Source of the DNA: Bacteroidota bacterium | GTDB lineage: Bacteria > Bacteroidota > Bacteroidia > NS11-12g > UBA9320 | Direction of reading: 5' to 3' | Length of the DNA: 64,000 nt | Assembly (NCBI GenBank): GCA_947468275.1 | Contig: CANIKO010000008.1 | Coordinates: forward strand, 1-64,000 | Shown here: positions 1 through 48,993 of the stretch, piece by piece | Position numbering within the stretch: the first letter of the stretch is position 1 | Layout of the letters: each line of letters opens with the position of its first letter | Program-made: the position numbers and the translations under genes | Notes under the pieces: generated by a model | The model's input: the letters and a program-made list of their open reading frames with translations, nothing else | Database searches by the model: none | What the model was told of the DNA's origin: nothing

Positions 1-2608
1 GATGGCTTTTAACTCAGCCTTAACCTTAACCTCAAACTCAGCCGTATCTCCCAAAGCTTCGCAACCATCGTTCACTATCAGTTGAATTTTTAAAGTCTTT
101 TTAGTTAAAAATTTCAAACTATCTGTGGTGGAAAGAACGGAATTAGATACCAAATCTTTCCACTGGTAGCGGTATTGTTTGGGTACACCGCCGCTGGCTG
201 TGGCTTTGTATTTTAAAAGGTTTCCGGTGCAAAGGGTGGTGTCGCGGTAAGTCGATTTTATTGTTACCTGTTTGCGTTGGCTGATGATTAAAAAAGCGGT
301 ATCGGATTTATTGGTGCAGCCGTCTTTTAGGATGATGGCCAGTTTTTCGATTGGGTCGCTTGGGGTATACGTTAAAGTATCTCGCAATAAATTTTGGCCA
401 CTTTTCATGGTAAACCACAATTTAGGATTGCTCACAAAATACCATTGAAACTTATAATTTACCGAGTCACCACCTGTGAAATAATACGGTACTTGCAACG
501 CTCCATCTCCGCAAACGGTGGTATCGTTAAACGCCAAAACTGTTTTCAATGCCGGCCTCACTATCACTTTTTTAAAGGCAGTATCGGGTGCTCCGCATCC
601 GCTGCTGTCGCCTATTATTATTTTGTAGGTGGTATTTTTTATTGGCCACACAATGGGTTGCCGCTTGGTGCTGTCGTCCATTCTGTATTTTGGGCTCCAC
701 GTCCATTTTGTGCCGCCGTAAGTATTTAGTTTTAGGCTGTCGCCCATGCAAATGGTTTCCGGTGGACCGGGGTTGGCTTTGTCTTTACTATAAATAAGCA
801 ATCGCAAGGTGTCGGTTACATAATAACTTTGGATTTTTGGACTGGTGCTTCGTATTCGTATTCGGTATTGTGTGGAAGTAGAAACTTGAAATAAAGGTAA
901 TGTGCCTTTTACCAAACCATCTTTATTGCTTTTTAGTCGTCCCAATTCTCTTCCCCCTCCATCAAAGTTTCCCTGCTCATTGCTTAGTTCAGCAATAAAT
1001 ACATTATTGGTATCAAATTTACCAACTAATTTATAGGGAACTTTTATGGTATCCCCCGCACAGTATGGGCCTGCACTTACCTTGCCGCGGGTAATGGAAT
1101 AGTCGGTGATTTTGGTGAGCCAACGACCAAATTTACCTGTTGTACTATCCTTTAGAGTTCCCAATTGGATTTTATCCCGAAACAACCCAGCAGCATATAC
1201 TGAACTTCCAAATTTGGTATCCATAGAATTTATAGCACCATCCCCATACGTAGCCCACAAAACATTTCCTATCGTATCGGCTTTAAACATTACTAATCCT
1301 CCAAACCAATAAGCAACTGATCGGGGAGATAGTATTGTACTATCAATTAGTATTTTATTAAAAAATTGACCACCAAAATAAAGGAAACCATCTTTGTGTT
1401 TCACAAAATTAATTCCACATGACTGATAATGATCATTGGATTGGTCGAGAATTTTTGGCTTAAAAAACCACCGAGTTTTGAAATTGGTTGAAATAGAAGC
1501 TGAATAAATTTCTAAGGCCCAATTTTTTTGTTTTTTATATGAATTTGGAGCAAATCCAGGTATGATTTTTTTGTTTCCCCATGGCAAACTATCCCTAAAA
1601 GAACCACCAAAATTTAAAAATACCCCGTCAGTTTCCAGACAATTTAGATTAAAAATATTGGAGTTATGAATTACAAATCTTTTGAGGTATTTCCCTAAAG
1701 TGTCCGTTTCTATAATAAATCCGCCTGGACTATAGAAAGTATCTTTATTTATTTTAACTATCCTTGCTGTAATTTCATTTCCAAAATCACCTGAAATATA
1801 TAACTTGTCTTTAAGTGGCAGCAGCCCTGTCAATCTGAATCCGTCGTAAAACCGAGCTGTCGGAGAATATAAATAGTTGGACCATAATATCAATCCATTT
1901 GATGGTTTAAGTTCACCATAAATACTTGTTAAGCCTGCTTTTAAGTAATAAGTAATATTACCAAATTTAGTGGTGTCTGTTGATACGCATAGAAAATAAA
2001 TATGCCCCTTATGATAAAACAATTTACTATTAGGATTCCTATCCCAATTCATAGCTTGTGCATTCTCATAATCCATATCAATTAGTTTTGAATTCCCAGT
2101 TTGCGAAGACCATTTGTAGTTTAAATTTTCATCAAATTTGCTGAATATAATACGTCCTTTTGCTGCCATAAAAGTATCCTTACCTATTACACCAATTGAA
2201 TCAAGATAGGCCATTGAATAAAAATTGCCGCTATCATCCCTACATATTTCTTTAATGCTAAAAGAACTCCATTGTTTATTAATAAATAATTTACCAACCA
2301 AGTTCAGCCTTTTTGCTTTTCCACTGCTATCAATTAACGCAATATAATAATCTACCTCAGGATAAACAGATGATATAATTTTAAACGTATCTAAAGTCAA
2401 GGAATCGCGATATCCCTGCCGACAATAAACTGGAAAAAGAATTGCCAACCCACCTCCAGGCATAGATATTGTGCTGTTAATGGATAACCCATTCGATCCA
2501 TTTGAGTTTTTAAGCGTTTTTAGCCATTCAAAATTTTGAGAATATATCGGCTTTATAAATCCAGAAAATAGTATAATTGAAAAAATATAAAACCGATATA
2601 AACTCATC
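1..2608 (-). CDS. Large secreted adhesin-like protein, 3' end beyond window, apparent frameshift near start
   Basis: The body frame is open from about 2604 to the left edge. It encodes roughly 510 residues of beta-rich sequence that I cannot assign to a family. Next comes a block starting CAGDTIKVPY and containing NNVFIAELSN, of the kind seen in very large Bacteroidota surface proteins. At least three Ig/PKD-like modules follow, opening near motifs such as CMGDSLKLN and CGDGALQVPY. The only ATG that would start a signal peptide, at 2608, is one base out of frame with the body. Seven A on the + strand (2580-2586) separate them; with six A the N-terminus reads as a signal peptide ending IYSQN. 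In the body frame a TGA lies directly upstream. The gene is therefore phase-off, broken, or affected by a sequencing error. A C-terminal sorting domain cannot be checked here. Confidence 0.75.
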
Positions 2609-2642
2609 TTTACTTCAAATGTAATTCTATTAGATTTGAAAA

Positions 2643-3113
2643 TTAGTAAATTTGAATTAAAATAACCGGATATGTGGCTCCACAAATGCTAGGAGTACCT
2701 CCTGAACAGTCTATGCTTAAGCTACAAGAACCAGAGCATGGAGGAGATAATGAGGTTGTTGGAAAACTACCACCACTTCCAAATGGAACAGTGCAGGTTC
2801 CGTCACTCACTGTAATATGGTCTACAGCAGCACCTACCCAAGAAACGCAGCCAGCATATAATATATTCCCAGAAGTAACGAGAATAGATGTATACAATAA
2901 TGTTGACGATGCGTCATAAAAATATACTCTCCAATCGCATCCACTTGGAGAACCAAGATTATTGTTTACTGTAAGATGCGCTTGTTGTGCCTTAGCCTTA
3001 AACCCAAAACTTGTAAAAGCTAAAATAGCTAATAGGATAAATGTTTTTTGAAAGAAATTTCTCGTGTTGGTGTTTTCACCAATATTGGTTGGGTTTGTTG
3101 TTTGTGTTTTCAT
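2643..3113 (-). CDS. Small Cys-rich secreted protein, unknown function
   Basis: A 156-residue protein I do not recognise. A polar N-terminal stretch of about 20 residues precedes a hydrophobic segment (FILLAILAFTSFGF) and an AKAQQA site that looks like signal peptidase I cleavage, so it is probably exported. The mature part is about 110 residues with eight cysteines, four of them in the short stretch PPCSGSCSLSIDCSGG; disulfides are likely. No catalytic motif or T9SS sorting domain is visible. It lies 149 bases downstream of the LuxR-type regulator gene, and that spacer carries dyads resembling those upstream of the regulator's operon. It is a plausible output of that two-component system, which is inference. 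Confidence 0.7.
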   Translation of the reverse strand: MKTQTTNPTNIGENTNTRNFFQKTFILLAILAFTSFGFKAKAQQAHLTVNNNLGSPSGCDWRVYFYDASSTLLYTSILVTSGNILYAGCVSWVGAAVDHITVSDGTCTVPFGSGGSFPTTSLSPPCSGSCSLSIDCSGGTPSICGATYPVILIQIY

Positions 3114-3181
3114 GTTTTTTTTAATTTGTTACTCAAACCTAACAGTATTAATTCCGTTGCACCTAACATTTAGCTCAAAAA

Positions 3182-3255
3182 TCATACCAACTAATGATAC
3201 AAATCATATGATGGTATGAGAGGTTAAAGAACACTTATACTATGATAATATGATA
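3182..3255. promoter_or_regulatory. Dyad cluster upstream of the Cys-rich secreted gene
   Basis: TCATACCA at 3182-3189 is the inverted partner of TGGTATGA at 3212-3219. Between them sits the 10-base palindrome ATCATATGAT (3203-3212). Two direct copies of TATGATA follow at 3241-3247 and 3249-3255. Related elements lie at 5671-5720. LuxR/NarL-type regulators normally bind short dyads, so this is a candidate operator for the regulator at 3263-3913. No binding evidence is available. Confidence 0.45.
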
Positions 3256-3262
3256 GAAAAAG

Positions 3263-3913
3263 TTAGGGGATGAATAACTTATGTTTTACAGCATAGTTCA
3301 TTAAACCCTGAAAACTATTGACACCCATTTTTTTCATAATATGGGCTCTGTGGGTGGCTATTGTATTATAACTTCGTGACACCTTATCGGCTACCTGATG
3401 GGCACTCAGGCCTTGGCATAGCAAACCAATTATTTCCTTCTCACGTAGGCTAAATACTGGCAAAAGCTTGTCTTGCAGGTGCATTTCGCTATTGTTATAA
3501 TTAGCCCATACATCATACACTTCCGGGGTAAAATACTTTCCGCCAATGGTTATATGGTTAATGGCTTTTATTAGTTCATTTCGGTCAGCACTTTTGAGTA
3601 TGTAGGCATCTATGCCCAGTTCTATTAGTTCTGTTACTTGTTTTCGCTCATTATACATCGAAAACATAATGATCTTTGTGTTTTTATATTCCTTCCTTAT
3701 GCGGCTTGCTGTCTCTATTCCATCCATCACTTTCATTTCTATATCCAGTATCACTATATCAAATGGCTTTTGCTCCAGTTTATCCAAAGCCATTTGCCCA
3801 TTTTCGGCCTCCTCATAATATTTAACATTATCAAGTGTCGATACAATTTTCACAACTCCTTCCCTTACCACAGCATGGTCGTCCACTATCAATATGCTTA
3901 TTAACTCCGACAT
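3263..3913 (-). CDS. LuxR/NarL-family response regulator
   Basis: A 216-residue two-component regulator. The receiver domain covers about residues 5-120, with acidic pair D11/D12, phospho-acceptor Asp57 (VILDIEM) and the conserved lysine in YILKS near residue 109. A LuxR-type helix-turn-helix covers about 150-210 (LREKEIIGLLCQGLSAHQVA and TVxTHRxxIMKKxGV-like sequence). Length is normal for the family. Its ATG lies 6 bases after the stop of the NarX-type kinase, so the two are almost certainly a cognate pair in one operon. Dyads in front of 3113 and 5585 are candidate binding sites. The assignment is firm; the signal sensed is unknown. Confidence 0.95.
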   Translation of the reverse strand: MSELISILIVDDHAVVREGVVKIVSTLDNVKYYEEAENGQMALDKLEQKPFDIVILDIEMKVMDGIETASRIRKEYKNTKIIMFSMYNERKQVTELIELGIDAYILKSADRNELIKAINHITIGGKYFTPEVYDVWANYNNSEMHLQDKLLPVFSLREKEIIGLLCQGLSAHQVADKVSRSYNTIATHRAHIMKKMGVNSFQGLMNYAVKHKLFIP

Positions 3914-3919
3914 AAATAT

Positions 3920-4663
3920 TTATCCCTCAATATTAATAATTAATACCAACCTAAACCCATAGTCACCATCCACACTCAATTGCCCATTTATAATGGCCGC
4001 CCGGGTATATATATTTTTAAACCCTATTCCATCTGTTTGGATACCATCCTTTATTCCTTTTCCATTATCGGTATAGGTGTATTCCAATCGTTTTTTTTCA
4101 TTAAAATAATATAGGTCAAGCATCGTTTCTGTAGCTTCGCTATGTTTAATGCTATTTTGTAGCAGCTCCTGAGTAATTTTATAAAGATGGAAAGCCGTTT
4201 CATTTGATATAGGAATATTCTCTCCATTATGGTTAAAATAAAACGGAATTTTTCCGGCCCAGTTATCTTCAACAAGTTTTTCGATGGTATAAACTAAACC
4301 ATATTTGTTTAATGATTGGGGCATAAGGTCGTGCGATATTTGCCGTATGGTTTTCATTGCAGTGGCAATTTTTGATTTAACCGTTTCCAGTTTTTCGCCT
4401 GTGGCCATGTTGTCAACTTCTATTTCATCCACCACATTTATTATGGATGTCAGTTCTATACCAAGCCCATCGTGAAGGTCGCGGGCTATGCGGCCACGTT
4501 CATTCTGCTGCCCTTTATAAAGATTGCTTATGGCTTCCTTTTGCTTTTGCTTTAAATTTTTGTTGTACCGCTTAAAAAATACAATAAAGAAAATACCAAG
4601 TGCCAGCAATACAGCCGACCAGGCAATAACCAAAAACACTATTAAATCCTGATTTTGTTGCAT
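3920..4663 (-). CDS. NarX/LiaS-type sensor histidine kinase
   Basis: Membrane-anchored kinase of the HisKA_3 type. With the start at 4663, residues 7-30 form one transmembrane helix, 35-55 a short linker or coiled coil, and His64 in RIARDLHDGLG is the phospho-acceptor. The C-terminal half is a HATPase domain with an N-box-like QELLQNSIKHS and a G-box (DNGKGIKDG, GIGFKNIYTRA). An in-frame ATG at 4693 would add ten residues and deepen the overlap with the upstream membrane-protein gene; 4663 puts the helix immediately at the N-terminus and is preferred. There is almost no extracytoplasmic part, so the upstream multi-helix protein may supply sensing (inference). Confidence 0.93.
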   Translation of the reverse strand: MQQNQDLIVFLVIAWSAVLLALGIFFIVFFKRYNKNLKQKQKEAISNLYKGQQNERGRIARDLHDGLGIELTSIINVVDEIEVDNMATGEKLETVKSKIATAMKTIRQISHDLMPQSLNKYGLVYTIEKLVEDNWAGKIPFYFNHNGENIPISNETAFHLYKITQELLQNSIKHSEATETMLDLYYFNEKKRLEYTYTDNGKGIKDGIQTDGIGFKNIYTRAAIINGQLSVDGDYGFRLVLIINIEG

Positions 4664-5274
4664 AAAAAACTTACCCCAAACATTATATTGCATACTATAT
4701 TGCTACTGGCATTAATAATTTTGAAAGCATTTGAAAATAACTGGTTGTTAAAACTTTCACTGCTTGCCTGAACATAAGTATAAATCGAAAAAATGGTTAA
4801 ATAATAAAACAAACGGGCGGTGGCTATCCAAAAAAAAGTATTTTGAAGCAAGCTCATATCATTGATGAGCGTAAGTAGCACATAAATACTTTGAATAATA
4901 AAATAAAGAAATAAAGCAACAAAAATTATGGCTCCGGGATAAGCAAAAAGCTGAGGCCAAATTAAAGTAATAAATCCATCGCATAGTATTAATACCAGAA
5001 AACCCAATGTAAAATGCCTGAACCAGGGTTTAAAAGTTAACCGCTTATTAAAAAGCAATGCGAAAAACAAAAAATCACTTATCAAAAACAATTTGAACAT
5101 CCAGTGATTATTAATATGACTAAAAGCTAATCCTAATGAGATGGATTCAAAAACAGCAGAAAAAAGAATAAATACCAAAAAGAAATTCAGAAGTTTTCCA
5201 TTTCTGTAATAAAAAGCAAGGCCTGCAATAAGAGGAAATAATAGTGAGGAGCTACTTACTATATCAACCAGCAT
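4642..5274 (-). CDS. Polytopic membrane protein of the sensor operon
   Basis: A 210-residue protein, almost entirely hydrophobic, with about six or seven predicted transmembrane helices and no recognisable catalytic motif. Its ATG shares one base with the TAA of the small CPPxC protein gene (TAATG), suggesting translational coupling. Its 3' end overlaps the kinase start by about 22 bases. The kinase downstream has only one helix and no sensor domain, so this protein is a good candidate for the membrane input module of the pair. I do not recognise a named family; function is inferred only from context. Confidence 0.85.
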   Translation of the reverse strand: MLVDIVSSSSLLFPLIAGLAFYYRNGKLLNFFLVFILFSAVFESISLGLAFSHINNHWMFKLFLISDFLFFALLFNKRLTFKPWFRHFTLGFLVLILCDGFITLIWPQLFAYPGAIIFVALFLYFIIQSIYVLLTLINDMSLLQNTFFWIATARLFYYLTIFSIYTYVQASSESFNNQLFSNAFKIINASSNIVCNIMFGVSFLCNKIRI

Positions 5275-5585
5275 TAAGAATTAAGTGCATTTGTTGAACC
5301 ACAACTTGGGGGACAAGCAGTTCCATACTCAGCTAACTCTCCTGGTAGTATATCATTTTCATCAGCCAATACCCCACATATTACCAGTTTGGGATTTCCA
5401 AATTCATCCTCTCCAAAATAAATACGGATACCCACGCAATCATCTTGTGCAAGAATGGCGTTAATTGCTGATTGGCCATAATAAAATCCCTGAACGGCTG
5501 ATGGGTGGTTTGATCTGTAATTGGCGGTTAAGTCGGCTGCGGCCAATACTGTAATACTGTGGTCTTCGTTTCCTGAGAATGACAT
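5274..5585 (-). CDS. Small conserved-looking protein with C-terminal CPPxC motif
   Basis: A 103-residue, acidic, probably cytoplasmic protein without signal peptide or membrane segment. It opens MSFSGNEDHSITV, has a central QDDCVGIRIYFGEDEFGNPK segment that looks like paired beta strands, and ends CPPSCGSTNALNS. I recall similar small proteins with a CPPxC tail near sensor kinases in other Bacteroidota, but I know of no established function. It is the first gene of a tightly packed four-gene operon (this protein, membrane protein, kinase, regulator). The Cys pair could bind metal or respond to redox; that is speculation. Confidence 0.75.
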   Translation of the reverse strand: MSFSGNEDHSITVLAAADLTANYRSNHPSAVQGFYYGQSAINAILAQDDCVGIRIYFGEDEFGNPKLVICGVLADENDILPGELAEYGTACPPSCGSTNALNS

Positions 5586-5670
5586 GATTTTTTTATTTAG
5601 ATTACAAGTATAGATGTATTTTAATACCGCCCTTGGCTTTTAAATTAATTCTTATTAAAAATAATTAGCT

Positions 5671-5720
5671 GGTATGATAAATAATAGAATTATTTTTCAA
5701 TTTATCATATTGCAATATGA
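5671..5720. promoter_or_regulatory. Palindromic operator candidate upstream of the sensor operon
   Basis: Contains the perfect 16-base palindrome TCATATTGCAATATGA (5705-5720), TTATCATA at 5702-5709, and GGTATGATAA at 5671-5680. The words GGTATGA and TATGATA recur in the spacer before the Cys-rich secreted gene. No T-run follows the palindrome, so it does not look like a terminator. It lies about 90-135 bases upstream of the first ATG of the operon. Autoregulation by the operon's LuxR-type regulator is a testable inference. Confidence 0.45.
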
Positions 5721-46419: not shown

Positions 46420-48993
46420 TTAATGTTTCAATACTATGATTTTTTGCTTAAAGATAGCCTCACTTGTTTTTAAATTTATAAAATATAATCCTCCAGGATG
46501 TTTACTTAGATCTAGTAATTGCTGACCAATCTCCAAAACTCCTGCTTGAATTACTTGGCCAGAAACATCAGTCAAAGTAAATAAACCACGTCCATTATGA
46601 TTCTCAATATAAACCATCCCTTCCGATGGATTTGGATAAATATTCAATCGATTTTCACCATCTGAAGGTTTGATTCCTGATGTTAGGCAAGTAATATTTC
46701 GGGTATTGCAATAGGTAGTATCGCAACTGTGACATGTATCAGTAACTTTTATACAAACTGTGTAGGTGCCATTTTGAGTTATAGGAAAGTTCATAACATA
46801 ACCGTTACCAGCCTTGTAGCCATTTACAGTCCATTGGTATTTCATACAGTTTTTATTACTGAATGAAATATAACCATTTAGTGAATAGGTATAATGTTTT
46901 CCGGTGCAGCTATCCCAGAAATAATAACCTGGTTTTTGTCCTTTCCAATTACATCCTGATTTTACACACGTAATGTATCGAGTACTGCAGAAAGTCGTAT
47001 CACAATTAGAGCAGGTATCAATTACCTTCATGCATAAACTATATGTGCCATTTTTGGTTATTGAATAATTAAAGAATCTGCTAGTTGAAACTAATGCGCT
47101 ATTCACATACCAATTGTACTTATAACAACCACCGGATGGACCAATATAACCATTCAATGAATATTTTCCGGTTTTGGTATTGCAACTATCCCAGGCAGAG
47201 AAATACATCCCTTTGGTTACCCAATTACAGTGACTTATGCATGTAATACCTCTGCTTGAGCAATAAGTAGTATCACAATTATTGCAGGTATCAGTTACTT
47301 TCACACACACTGAATATTTACCGTTTGCAGTTATTGGATAATTCATAACATAACCATTGCCAGCATTGGTTCCATTTACAGTCCATTGGTATTTGAAACA
47401 TGATTTACTGCTAAATGAAATATACGCATTAAGTGAGTATCTTTTTTTTGATGTATTGCAAGTATCCCAGAAATAGGCATACGCTGAACGGCTTTTCCAA
47501 TTGCATTTACTTGAACTTACACAGGTAATAGTTCTTGTGGTGCAATACGTTGTATCGCAATTATTACAAGTATCTGTTACCTTTACACATATAGAGTAAT
47601 TCCCATTTGTTGTAATTGGATAGTTATTCATAAGGTCTGCGGTTCCAGCATTATTTCCATTAACTGTCCATTGATATTTTAGGCAGGATTTATAATAATA
47701 ACTGGTATAATAAATATAAGCATTTAAAGAATATTTATTCTTTTTACCGGTACAAGTATCCCAATAACCAACTGCAGGATAGCGGCTAGCCCAATTGCAG
47801 TTGTTGCCTTTTACACAAGTAATATTTCTGGTGCTGCAAAAAGTTGTATCACAATTATTGCATGTATCTATTACTTTCATACATAAATTATAAGTACCAT
47901 TTTTAGTTATCGAATAATTTAAACCCCTGCTGGTGGAAACTAGGGCACTATTAACATACCAATTGTATTTATAACAACCAACCAAGGGACCTATATAACC
48001 ATTTAAAGCGTATTTATTGGTTTTGGTATTACAACTATCCCCAGCTGTAAAATACATACCTCTGGTTTTCCAATTGCAAGTATTAGTTACACATGTAATG
48101 GTTCTGGTGCTGCAATAAGTAGTATCGCAATAACCACAAGTGTCAGAAACCTTTACACAAACTGAATATGTTCCATTTTTGGTAATTGGATAGTTCATAA
48201 TATAGCCTGTTCCTGCATTTACACTATTAACTGTCCATTGATATTTTAGACAACTTTTGCTACCAAATGAAATGTAAGCATTTACAGAATATTTATTTTT
48301 CTTTCCAGTGCAGCTATCCCAAAAGTAAGAACCCATTTTTTGACCATTCCAATTACAGGCATTTTTAATACACGTGATTGTTCGTGTACTACAATAAGTG
48401 GTATCACAATTATTGCAAGTGTCACTAACTTTTACACAAACTGAATATGTACCGTTTTGGGTAATTGGATAATTCATTACATATCCAGTTCCTGCCGATG
48501 CACTGTTTACAGTCCACTGATATTTTAAACAACTTTTACTACTAAATGAAATATAGGCATTAAGCGAGTATCTTTTCTTTGTGGCATTGCAACTATCCCA
48601 AAAAGCATATCCTGCACTAAAATTACAGCTATTTTTAATACAGGTTATCGTTCTTGTGCTGCAATAGGTTGTATCACAATTATTGCAGGTATCAGTAACC
48701 TTTACACACACATTATAAGTACCATTTTTTGTAATGGCATAATGCATTACATATCCGGTTCCAGCGTTGGCACTATTTATAGTCCATTGGTATTTTAAAC
48801 AACTTTTACTGCTAAAAGAAATATAGCCATTAACCGAAGTACCCGATTTACTGGTATTACAACTATCCCAAAAATAGTAACCTGCTTTCAAATTTTTCCA
48901 ATTACACTTAGCAGCGTATGCCTTTTCCAAAGGCATGCTTGCTATAAAAAGAAATACCAAAATTTGAAAAATAATTGTGTAGAGTTTTTTCAT
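46420..48993 (-). CDS. Cys-rich repeat protein (eight PKD-like repeats) with T9SS type A sorting domain
   Basis: An 857-residue exported protein: signal peptide to about residue 28 (EKAYAA), eight tandem repeats of about 93 residues (30-772), then a type A sorting domain (LNIYPNPSEGMVYIEN, KHPGGLYFINLKTSE). Each repeat follows the plan CNW, DSC, SCLKYQWTVN, NGTYSVCVKV, DTCNNCDTTYC, ITC, with about eight cysteines, so there are roughly 60 in all and probably many disulfides. The fold resembles PKD/Ig modules. It is a predicted T9SS surface protein. It lies between mutY and the divergent HU gene, and the spacer upstream carries a 46-base inverted repeat. Confidence 0.92.
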   Translation of the reverse strand: MKKLYTIIFQILVFLFIASMPLEKAYAAKCNWKNLKAGYYFWDSCNTSKSGTSVNGYISFSSKSCLKYQWTINSANAGTGYVMHYAITKNGTYNVCVKVTDTCNNCDTTYCSTRTITCIKNSCNFSAGYAFWDSCNATKKRYSLNAYISFSSKSCLKYQWTVNSASAGTGYVMNYPITQNGTYSVCVKVSDTCNNCDTTYCSTRTITCIKNACNWNGQKMGSYFWDSCTGKKNKYSVNAYISFGSKSCLKYQWTVNSVNAGTGYIMNYPITKNGTYSVCVKVSDTCGYCDTTYCSTRTITCVTNTCNWKTRGMYFTAGDSCNTKTNKYALNGYIGPLVGCYKYNWYVNSALVSTSRGLNYSITKNGTYNLCMKVIDTCNNCDTTFCSTRNITCVKGNNCNWASRYPAVGYWDTCTGKKNKYSLNAYIYYTSYYYKSCLKYQWTVNGNNAGTADLMNNYPITTNGNYSICVKVTDTCNNCDTTYCTTRTITCVSSSKCNWKSRSAYAYFWDTCNTSKKRYSLNAYISFSSKSCFKYQWTVNGTNAGNGYVMNYPITANGKYSVCVKVTDTCNNCDTTYCSSRGITCISHCNWVTKGMYFSAWDSCNTKTGKYSLNGYIGPSGGCYKYNWYVNSALVSTSRFFNYSITKNGTYSLCMKVIDTCSNCDTTFCSTRYITCVKSGCNWKGQKPGYYFWDSCTGKHYTYSLNGYISFSNKNCMKYQWTVNGYKAGNGYVMNFPITQNGTYTVCIKVTDTCHSCDTTYCNTRNITCLTSGIKPSDGENRLNIYPNPSEGMVYIENHNGRGLFTLTDVSGQVIQAGVLEIGQQLLDLSKHPGGLYFINLKTSEAIFKQKIIVLKH
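46678..48906 (-). repeat. Eight in-gene tandem repeats of about 279 bp
   Basis: The coding repeats of the Cys-rich protein. Repeats four and seven share a distinct subtype (GYIGP, GCYKYNWYVNSALVSTSR), and repeats five and eight both begin with a DTCTGK/DSCTGK form, so the array appears to have grown partly by duplicating a block of three. Recombination between copies could change the length. Confidence 0.88.

Follow-up and report, generated by a model that had tools for sequence, protein, structure and literature searches.

A conserved four-gene cassette of Bacteroidota as a likely split-sensor two-component system with two undescribed protein families

The LiaFSR and VraTSR systems of the Bacillota are autoregulated and place the gene of an accessory membrane protein beside those of a NarX-type kinase with little sensor domain and a LuxR-type regulator. 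A comparable arrangement is present in the window, a 64,000-nt stretch of Bacteroidota DNA (assembly GCA_947468275.1, contig CANIKO010000008.1, positions 1 to 64,000), where a small protein with a CPPxC tail (CPP), a polytopic membrane protein (MEM), a sensor histidine kinase (HK) and a response regulator (RR) are encoded in one operon, followed by the gene of a secreted Cys-rich protein (CYS). In contrast to LiaF, which belongs to Pfam families of its own, MEM matches none of them; moreover, LiaFSR and VraTSR have no CPP-like protein and occur in a different phylum. The cassette also resembles NarX-NarL and other HisKA_3/GerE systems in the domains of its kinase and regulator; in the window's genus, its putative regulator sites are 16-bp inverted heptamers with 2-bp spacing, which is the 7-2-7 arrangement of NarL sites (PMC7419079, PMC4549865). 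However, the cassette kinase has no periplasmic sensor, HAMP or cofactor domain, and two extra proteins accompany it.

Two further groups of systems invite comparison. In the seven-helix receptor kinases (LytS-type BtsS and the 7TMR families), a seven-helix sensor unit drives a histidine kinase, as is proposed here for MEM; in those systems (for BtsS, PMC10653868), helices and kinase are joined in one protein and the helices belong to known domains, whereas MEM is a separate and unrelated protein. The agr and ComQXPA systems likewise combine a small protein, a polytopic membrane protein, a kinase and a regulator in one operon, but Pfam finds no AgrB, AgrD, ComQ or ComX homologue in the cassette, and CPP is modelled as a folded protein of 100-130 aa. 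Among known systems, the cassette fits best as a split-sensor variant of the NarX/NarL two-component type, one for which searches of the literature outside subscription journals gave no description. It is likely that this phylum-wide system has MEM as receptor-like protein and CPP as its partner, with HK and RR acting through 7-2-7 repeats.

Gene order and conservation of the block

The genes of the window locus, all on the minus strand, are:
5274 to 5585, minus strand: CPP, 103-aa operon leader of an undescribed family, with the tail CPPSCGSTNALNS and without a signal peptide
4642 to 5274, minus strand: MEM, 210-aa seven-helix membrane protein of an undescribed family
3920 to 4663, minus strand: HK, sensor histidine kinase, 247 aa from the ATG at 4663 (257 aa from the ATG at 4693)
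3263 to 3913, minus strand: RR, 216-aa response regulator of the NarL/LuxR type
2643 to 3113, minus strand: CYS, 156-aa secreted protein with a signal peptide and many Cys

The original prediction, made from the letters of the window, that the first four genes are tightly packed was borne out. The CPP stop and the MEM start have one base in common (TAATG), MEM and HK overlap by 22 bp when HK begins at ATG 4663, which is where paralogous kinases start, or by 52 bp from ATG 4693, and a gap of 6 bp separates HK from RR; the gap between RR and CYS is 149 bp.

The block is conserved across Bacteroidota. The window's genome (G000; 3.3 Mb, 99% complete) has four CPP genes, each followed by MEM, HK and RR. 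CPP is present in 33 of the 108 genomes of the window's order and, when the phylum is sampled evenly, in 37 of 395 genomes and 22 of 171 genera. Neighbourhoods were read with profiles on stop-to-stop frames at the 75 CPP loci that have at least 2.5 kb of downstream sequence; HK was found in 71 of these, RR in 69, both in 68, and a MEM profile match in 70. CPP and MEM therefore occur mostly with the kinase, a result that favours the proposed unit. The order CPP > MEM > HK > RR is kept in all complete loci of the order, in nearly all of those of the phylum sample, and in 18 of 18 Flavobacterium loci, mostly from named species. Most loci without a MEM profile match have a helical protein of the same size in its place, with four to seven helices (L103, L109, L110 and L132). 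Of the four loci with no HK match, three (L111, L115 and L112) have a PAS-HisKA kinase after MEM, that of L112 with a receiver domain; at the fourth, L133, the stretch examined holds no kinase. CPP-MEM is the cassette's most constant pair, and it is doubled in tandem (CPP-MEM-CPP-MEM) at L104 and L120.

When the four proteins are compared across 29 cassettes of the order, their distance matrices correlate with r of 0.74-0.94, values reached in none of 2000 permutations; part of this correlation reflects common host descent, but the sample also includes paralogues within one genome. Because the block is conserved and the distances are correlated, the cassette behaves as one unit.

Two undescribed families beside a sensorless kinase

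HK consists of one N-terminal hydrophobic helix followed by HisKA_3 (36 bits) and HATPase_c (26.4 bits), both at or above the Pfam cut-offs, and scans with Pfam and NCBIfam found no further domain, in agreement with the predicted single-helix kinase without a sensor domain. RR scored 97.4 bits for Response_reg and 45.9 bits for GerE. A scan with a defence-system library gave weak generic matches of HK and RR and nothing more. With no sensor domain in HK, the input plausibly comes through MEM and CPP.

MEM has no match in Pfam or NCBIfam, and members of its family alignment gave only chance matches to Pfam, with none to the LiaF families. Its structure model has seven helices (pLDDT 90, pTM 0.87); read from the loop charges, the N-terminus would lie outside and the Arg/Lys-rich end inside. 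Together with the gene overlap, these results uphold the expected six- or seven-helix protein of unfamiliar family coupled to the kinase. A Foldseek search with the model returned no significant match (E ≥ 0.6), and Pfam gave none to the LytS 5TMR and 7TMR-DISM receptor domains. VIA-align superposed the model on heptahelical receptors with Z of 11-12.4 and an rmsd of 4-5 over ~200 residues, which is the range of unrelated helical bundles; the likeness in modelled helix arrangement is no evidence of kinship. Identification of MEM as a retinal protein was rejected: Pfam matches it to no family, that of the microbial rhodopsins included, and where the window protein has a Lys in helix 7, its closest relatives have Ala or other residues.

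CPP likewise has no match in Pfam or NCBIfam, and members of its family alignment showed scattered chance matches only. Its structure model is a small alpha/beta domain (pLDDT 86), for which fold comparison found no known relative (best Z 3.3), though a missing match is no proof of a new fold. Among 78 homologues, Tyr56, Gly71 and Pro92 are retained in 97% and Cys50 in 79%; in the tail, the first Pro is present in 97% and the two Cys in 82% and 74%, and the CPPxC motif is thus common, not required. The prediction of a small CPPxC protein leading the operon holds for the leader position, but not for CPPxC as a fixed signature. Within their last 26 residues, 20 of the 78 homologues lack one or both of the two Cys, which makes it unlikely that the tail must hold a metal or redox site.

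Most CPPs, including that of the window, have no recognisable export signal. A membrane-anchor-like N-terminal stretch is found in the CPPs of L105, L112, L115 and L119 and probably also in that of L114, and lipoprotein-like signals begin those of L131 and L139. With export signals in some lineages and none in most, CPP may act on either side of the membrane. In comparisons between paralogues, CPP is more conserved than MEM. At one locus (L113, G204:C18), a 250-aa protein made of two fused CPP domains stands ahead of MEM-HK-RR.

Promoter elements and the CYS family

The putative RR sites and the gene that follows CYS are:
5662 to 5677, minus strand: 16-bp element TCATACCAGCTAATTA in the operon (CPP) promoter
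5705 to 5720, no strand: perfect 7-2-7 palindrome TCATATTGCAATATGA in the operon promoter
3182 to 3197, plus strand: 16-bp element TCATACCAACTAATGA before CYS
3204 to 3219, minus strand: 7-2-7 element TCATACCATCATATGA before CYS
1 to 2607, minus strand: giant secreted protein, partner gene of CYS, its 3' end cut by the contig end

Each cassette of G000 has its own 16-bp inverted repeat of the NarL-like 7-2-7 form before CPP, and it matches one before the gene downstream of RR. In particular, the elements are TCATACC-AG-CTAATTA and TCATACC-AA-CTAATGA in the window, TAGTACC-CT-GGTACTA and TAGTACC-AC-AGCACTA on contig C17, TAATAGT-TT-ACTATTA and TAATAGT-AA-ACTATGA on C21, and TAGTAGT-TT-ACTACTA in both promoters on C9; a cassette of a second genome, G006, has TCCCACT-TT-CTAATGA in both promoters. 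The elements agree within a cassette and differ between cassettes.

They are also rare. In the 3.3-Mb genome, the window motif TCATACCARCTAATKA has exactly two perfect matches, TCATACCAACTAATGA before CYS and TCATACCAGCTAATTA before CPP, and a whole-genome scan found no place with one mismatch; the dyads predicted to be common to the two promoters are indeed present. The C21 motif has four perfect places genome-wide, all in its cassette's two promoters. The C9 motif has four places in its own two promoters (one with one mismatch) and one further place on the same contig, 30 kb away and ahead of another operon. The C9 elements at L226:5740-9600 (G000:C9) precede an operon that comes after a DUF6603 gene and encodes, among others, a DNA/RNA non-specific endonuclease; the operon downstream of the C9 cassette itself leads to a DUF6603 gene as well. 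The C17 motif (type A) has five perfect places, which lie before CPP of C17, before the 642-aa gene after the C17 cassette, and before three CYS genes. A fourth motif (type B, TCATTAGAAANNGGGA) has four perfect genome places, all before CYS genes; it is the element of the G006 cassette, which is orthologous to that of the window, occupying the same position with the same neighbouring genes. Type B and the window element have the half-site CTAATGA in common, and to judge from this sequence the window regulator may also serve the type B CYS genes.

No Pfam or NCBIfam model matches CYS, one of eight dispersed family members in G000. Most of these genes combine a near-identical promoter and signal peptide with a variable Cys-rich mature part, and every one whose surroundings were read has a giant secreted protein after it; PKD and T9SS sorting domains are present in both of the giant proteins tested. 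Six of the eight bear elements (the window's, three of type A and two of type B) and the two most divergent bear none. The CYS-giant pairs (L193-L200; window 1-3113) are scattered over the genome as a multigene surface family. CYS was rejected as a fifth member of the unit, as it adjoins a cassette only in the window's genus and other cassettes have a different neighbour gene; it is probably a genus-level target of the regulator. Accordingly, of the five-part unit first proposed, the four genes are conserved together and the Cys-rich peptide is probably one of a family of dispersed targets, next to a cassette only in this genus.

Competing readings of the cassette

In the split-sensor reading, MEM would be a separate, receptor-like seven-helix protein that associates with the one-helix NarX-type kinase and governs its autophosphorylation, and CPP would be its dedicated partner, either a ligand or a regulator of the complex; on taking in a signal or the CPP protein, MEM would steer the sensorless kinase. 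HK would then phosphorylate the LuxR/NarL-type RR, which would bind the 16-bp 7-2-7 inverted repeats before CPP and so regulate its own operon. In the window's genus, RR would also bind before the adjacent CYS gene and the dispersed CYS-giant pairs, raising the expression of its own operon and of the target surface proteins, and paralogous cassettes with different repeats would each address their own targets. From the elements, RR in this genus probably controls its own operon and neighbouring secreted surface proteins, and the probable output is a set of such proteins that includes the adjacent CYS. The original prediction of MEM and CPP as input and the peptide as output is thus plausible for the input, given a sensorless kinase, and probable for the peptide as a target; it is narrowed in that the peptide is one of several targets and CPP is dispensable in some relatives.

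Several observations weigh against this reading. Four loci have MEM or MEM-like genes without CPP: a fifth MEM of G000 in the order RR > MEM > HK (L189, G000:C2, 4198-6262), a MEM > HK > RR block preceded by a 243-aa protein with the tail CPPDCNI and no CPP profile match (L190, G005:C13, 5351-6082), two MEM > HK > RR blocks on one contig (L192, G105:C15, 1-15001), and a weaker MEM-like gene without a kinase (L191, G049). Given these loci, CPP leads the operon usually but not always, and the core is MEM-HK-RR. The 243-aa protein stands in the CPP position as if the tail alone had been retained, and the paired blocks of L192 sit among tandem small lipoproteins of one family.

The promoter evidence has limits of its own. 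Taken alone, the best common 16-mer of the window promoter pair (14/16) is not beyond chance, as shuffles reach 15/16; the pair is convincing because the arrangement recurs, with different elements, in the genus's other cassettes. Plain 16-mer identity was set aside as a test, being too blunt for degenerate dyads in AT-rich DNA; it misses those of the type A cassettes. The motifs come from the very sites that they then find, and it is their sharing and their absence elsewhere that are informative. The CYS promoters and signal peptides are near-copies, and their common elements are no independent events. Over all 76 CPP promoters, the 7-2-7 spacing (spacer 2) was found 14 times versus 4.9 in shuffles, an enrichment that is weak and unspecific since spacers of 10 and 12 also exceed the shuffles, and the Flavobacterium promoters have a conserved promoter-like stretch with no clear dyad. 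Autoregulation is consequently supported in the window's genus only. What the analysis shows directly is the gene order, the conservation and co-divergence, the domains, the seven-helix model and the common elements with their rarity in the genome; we infer the complex, the phosphotransfer, the binding of RR to DNA, the direction of regulation and the role of CPP.

The strongest competitor, though less probable than the split sensor, casts CPP as an adaptor or inhibitor that acts in the cytoplasm on MEM or the kinase, or as a soluble sensor of a cofactor or metabolite, and has MEM only anchor or tune the kinase, as LiaF does for LiaS. Most CPPs have no signal peptide, Tyr56, Gly71 and Pro92 are nearly invariant with Cys50 frequent, and the CPP-less blocks mark CPP as accessory; however, several lineages have export signals, and the frequent loss of the paired Cys makes it unlikely that the tail has a fixed site for a metal or redox chemistry. 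Those export signals, clear in six homologues (four anchor-like, two lipoprotein-like), would suit an autoinducer circuit, in which CPP is exported and serves as the signal or as a precursor of it, MEM receives it or takes part in its maturation or export, and HK-RR feed back positively on the CPP operon. The gene order follows that of agr and ComQXPA with other proteins, elements lie in the operon's own promoter, and CPP-MEM is duplicated as a pair or in tandem units. Nevertheless, the circuit is improbable: most CPPs are folded proteins (by model) of 100-130 aa without an export signal, as opposed to short peptides, the operon holds no protease or exporter gene, and CPP exceeds MEM in conservation between paralogues, although signal peptides usually change quickly. 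A related proposal, that exported CPP read by a stand-alone MEM driving the sensorless kinase serves cell-cell or envelope signalling with insulated paralogues controlling variable surface proteins, is similarly doubtful.

That the common elements belong to another regulator, or were left over when promoters were duplicated, is a somewhat poorer prospect still. The CYS promoters are indeed near-identical copies over >100 bp, but the CPP and CYS promoters have only the 16-bp elements in common, not their flanks, and the elements agree inside each cassette and differ across cassettes. An ordinary NarXL-like system co-transcribed by chance with two unrelated small genes is very improbable and already refuted for linkage; HK and RR are of a common kind, yet the block is conserved phylum-wide, its four proteins diverge in correlation, and CPP and MEM stay paired even with a different kinase class.

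On the split-sensor reading, sensorless kinases of Bacteroidota may receive their input via a separate seven-helix protein. Two families outside Pfam and NCBIfam are constant companions of one kinase class in many Bacteroidota, including named Flavobacterium species, and the unit is more general than was visible from the window alone. With four paralogous cassettes in one genome, each under its own promoter element, the divergence of signalling specificity can be tested in a natural setting, and the surface proteins under the control of each cassette can be predicted from the elements. Elsewhere in the window (46420-48993), a secreted 857-aa protein is built from many similar Cys-containing repeats (CNWK...WDSC...).

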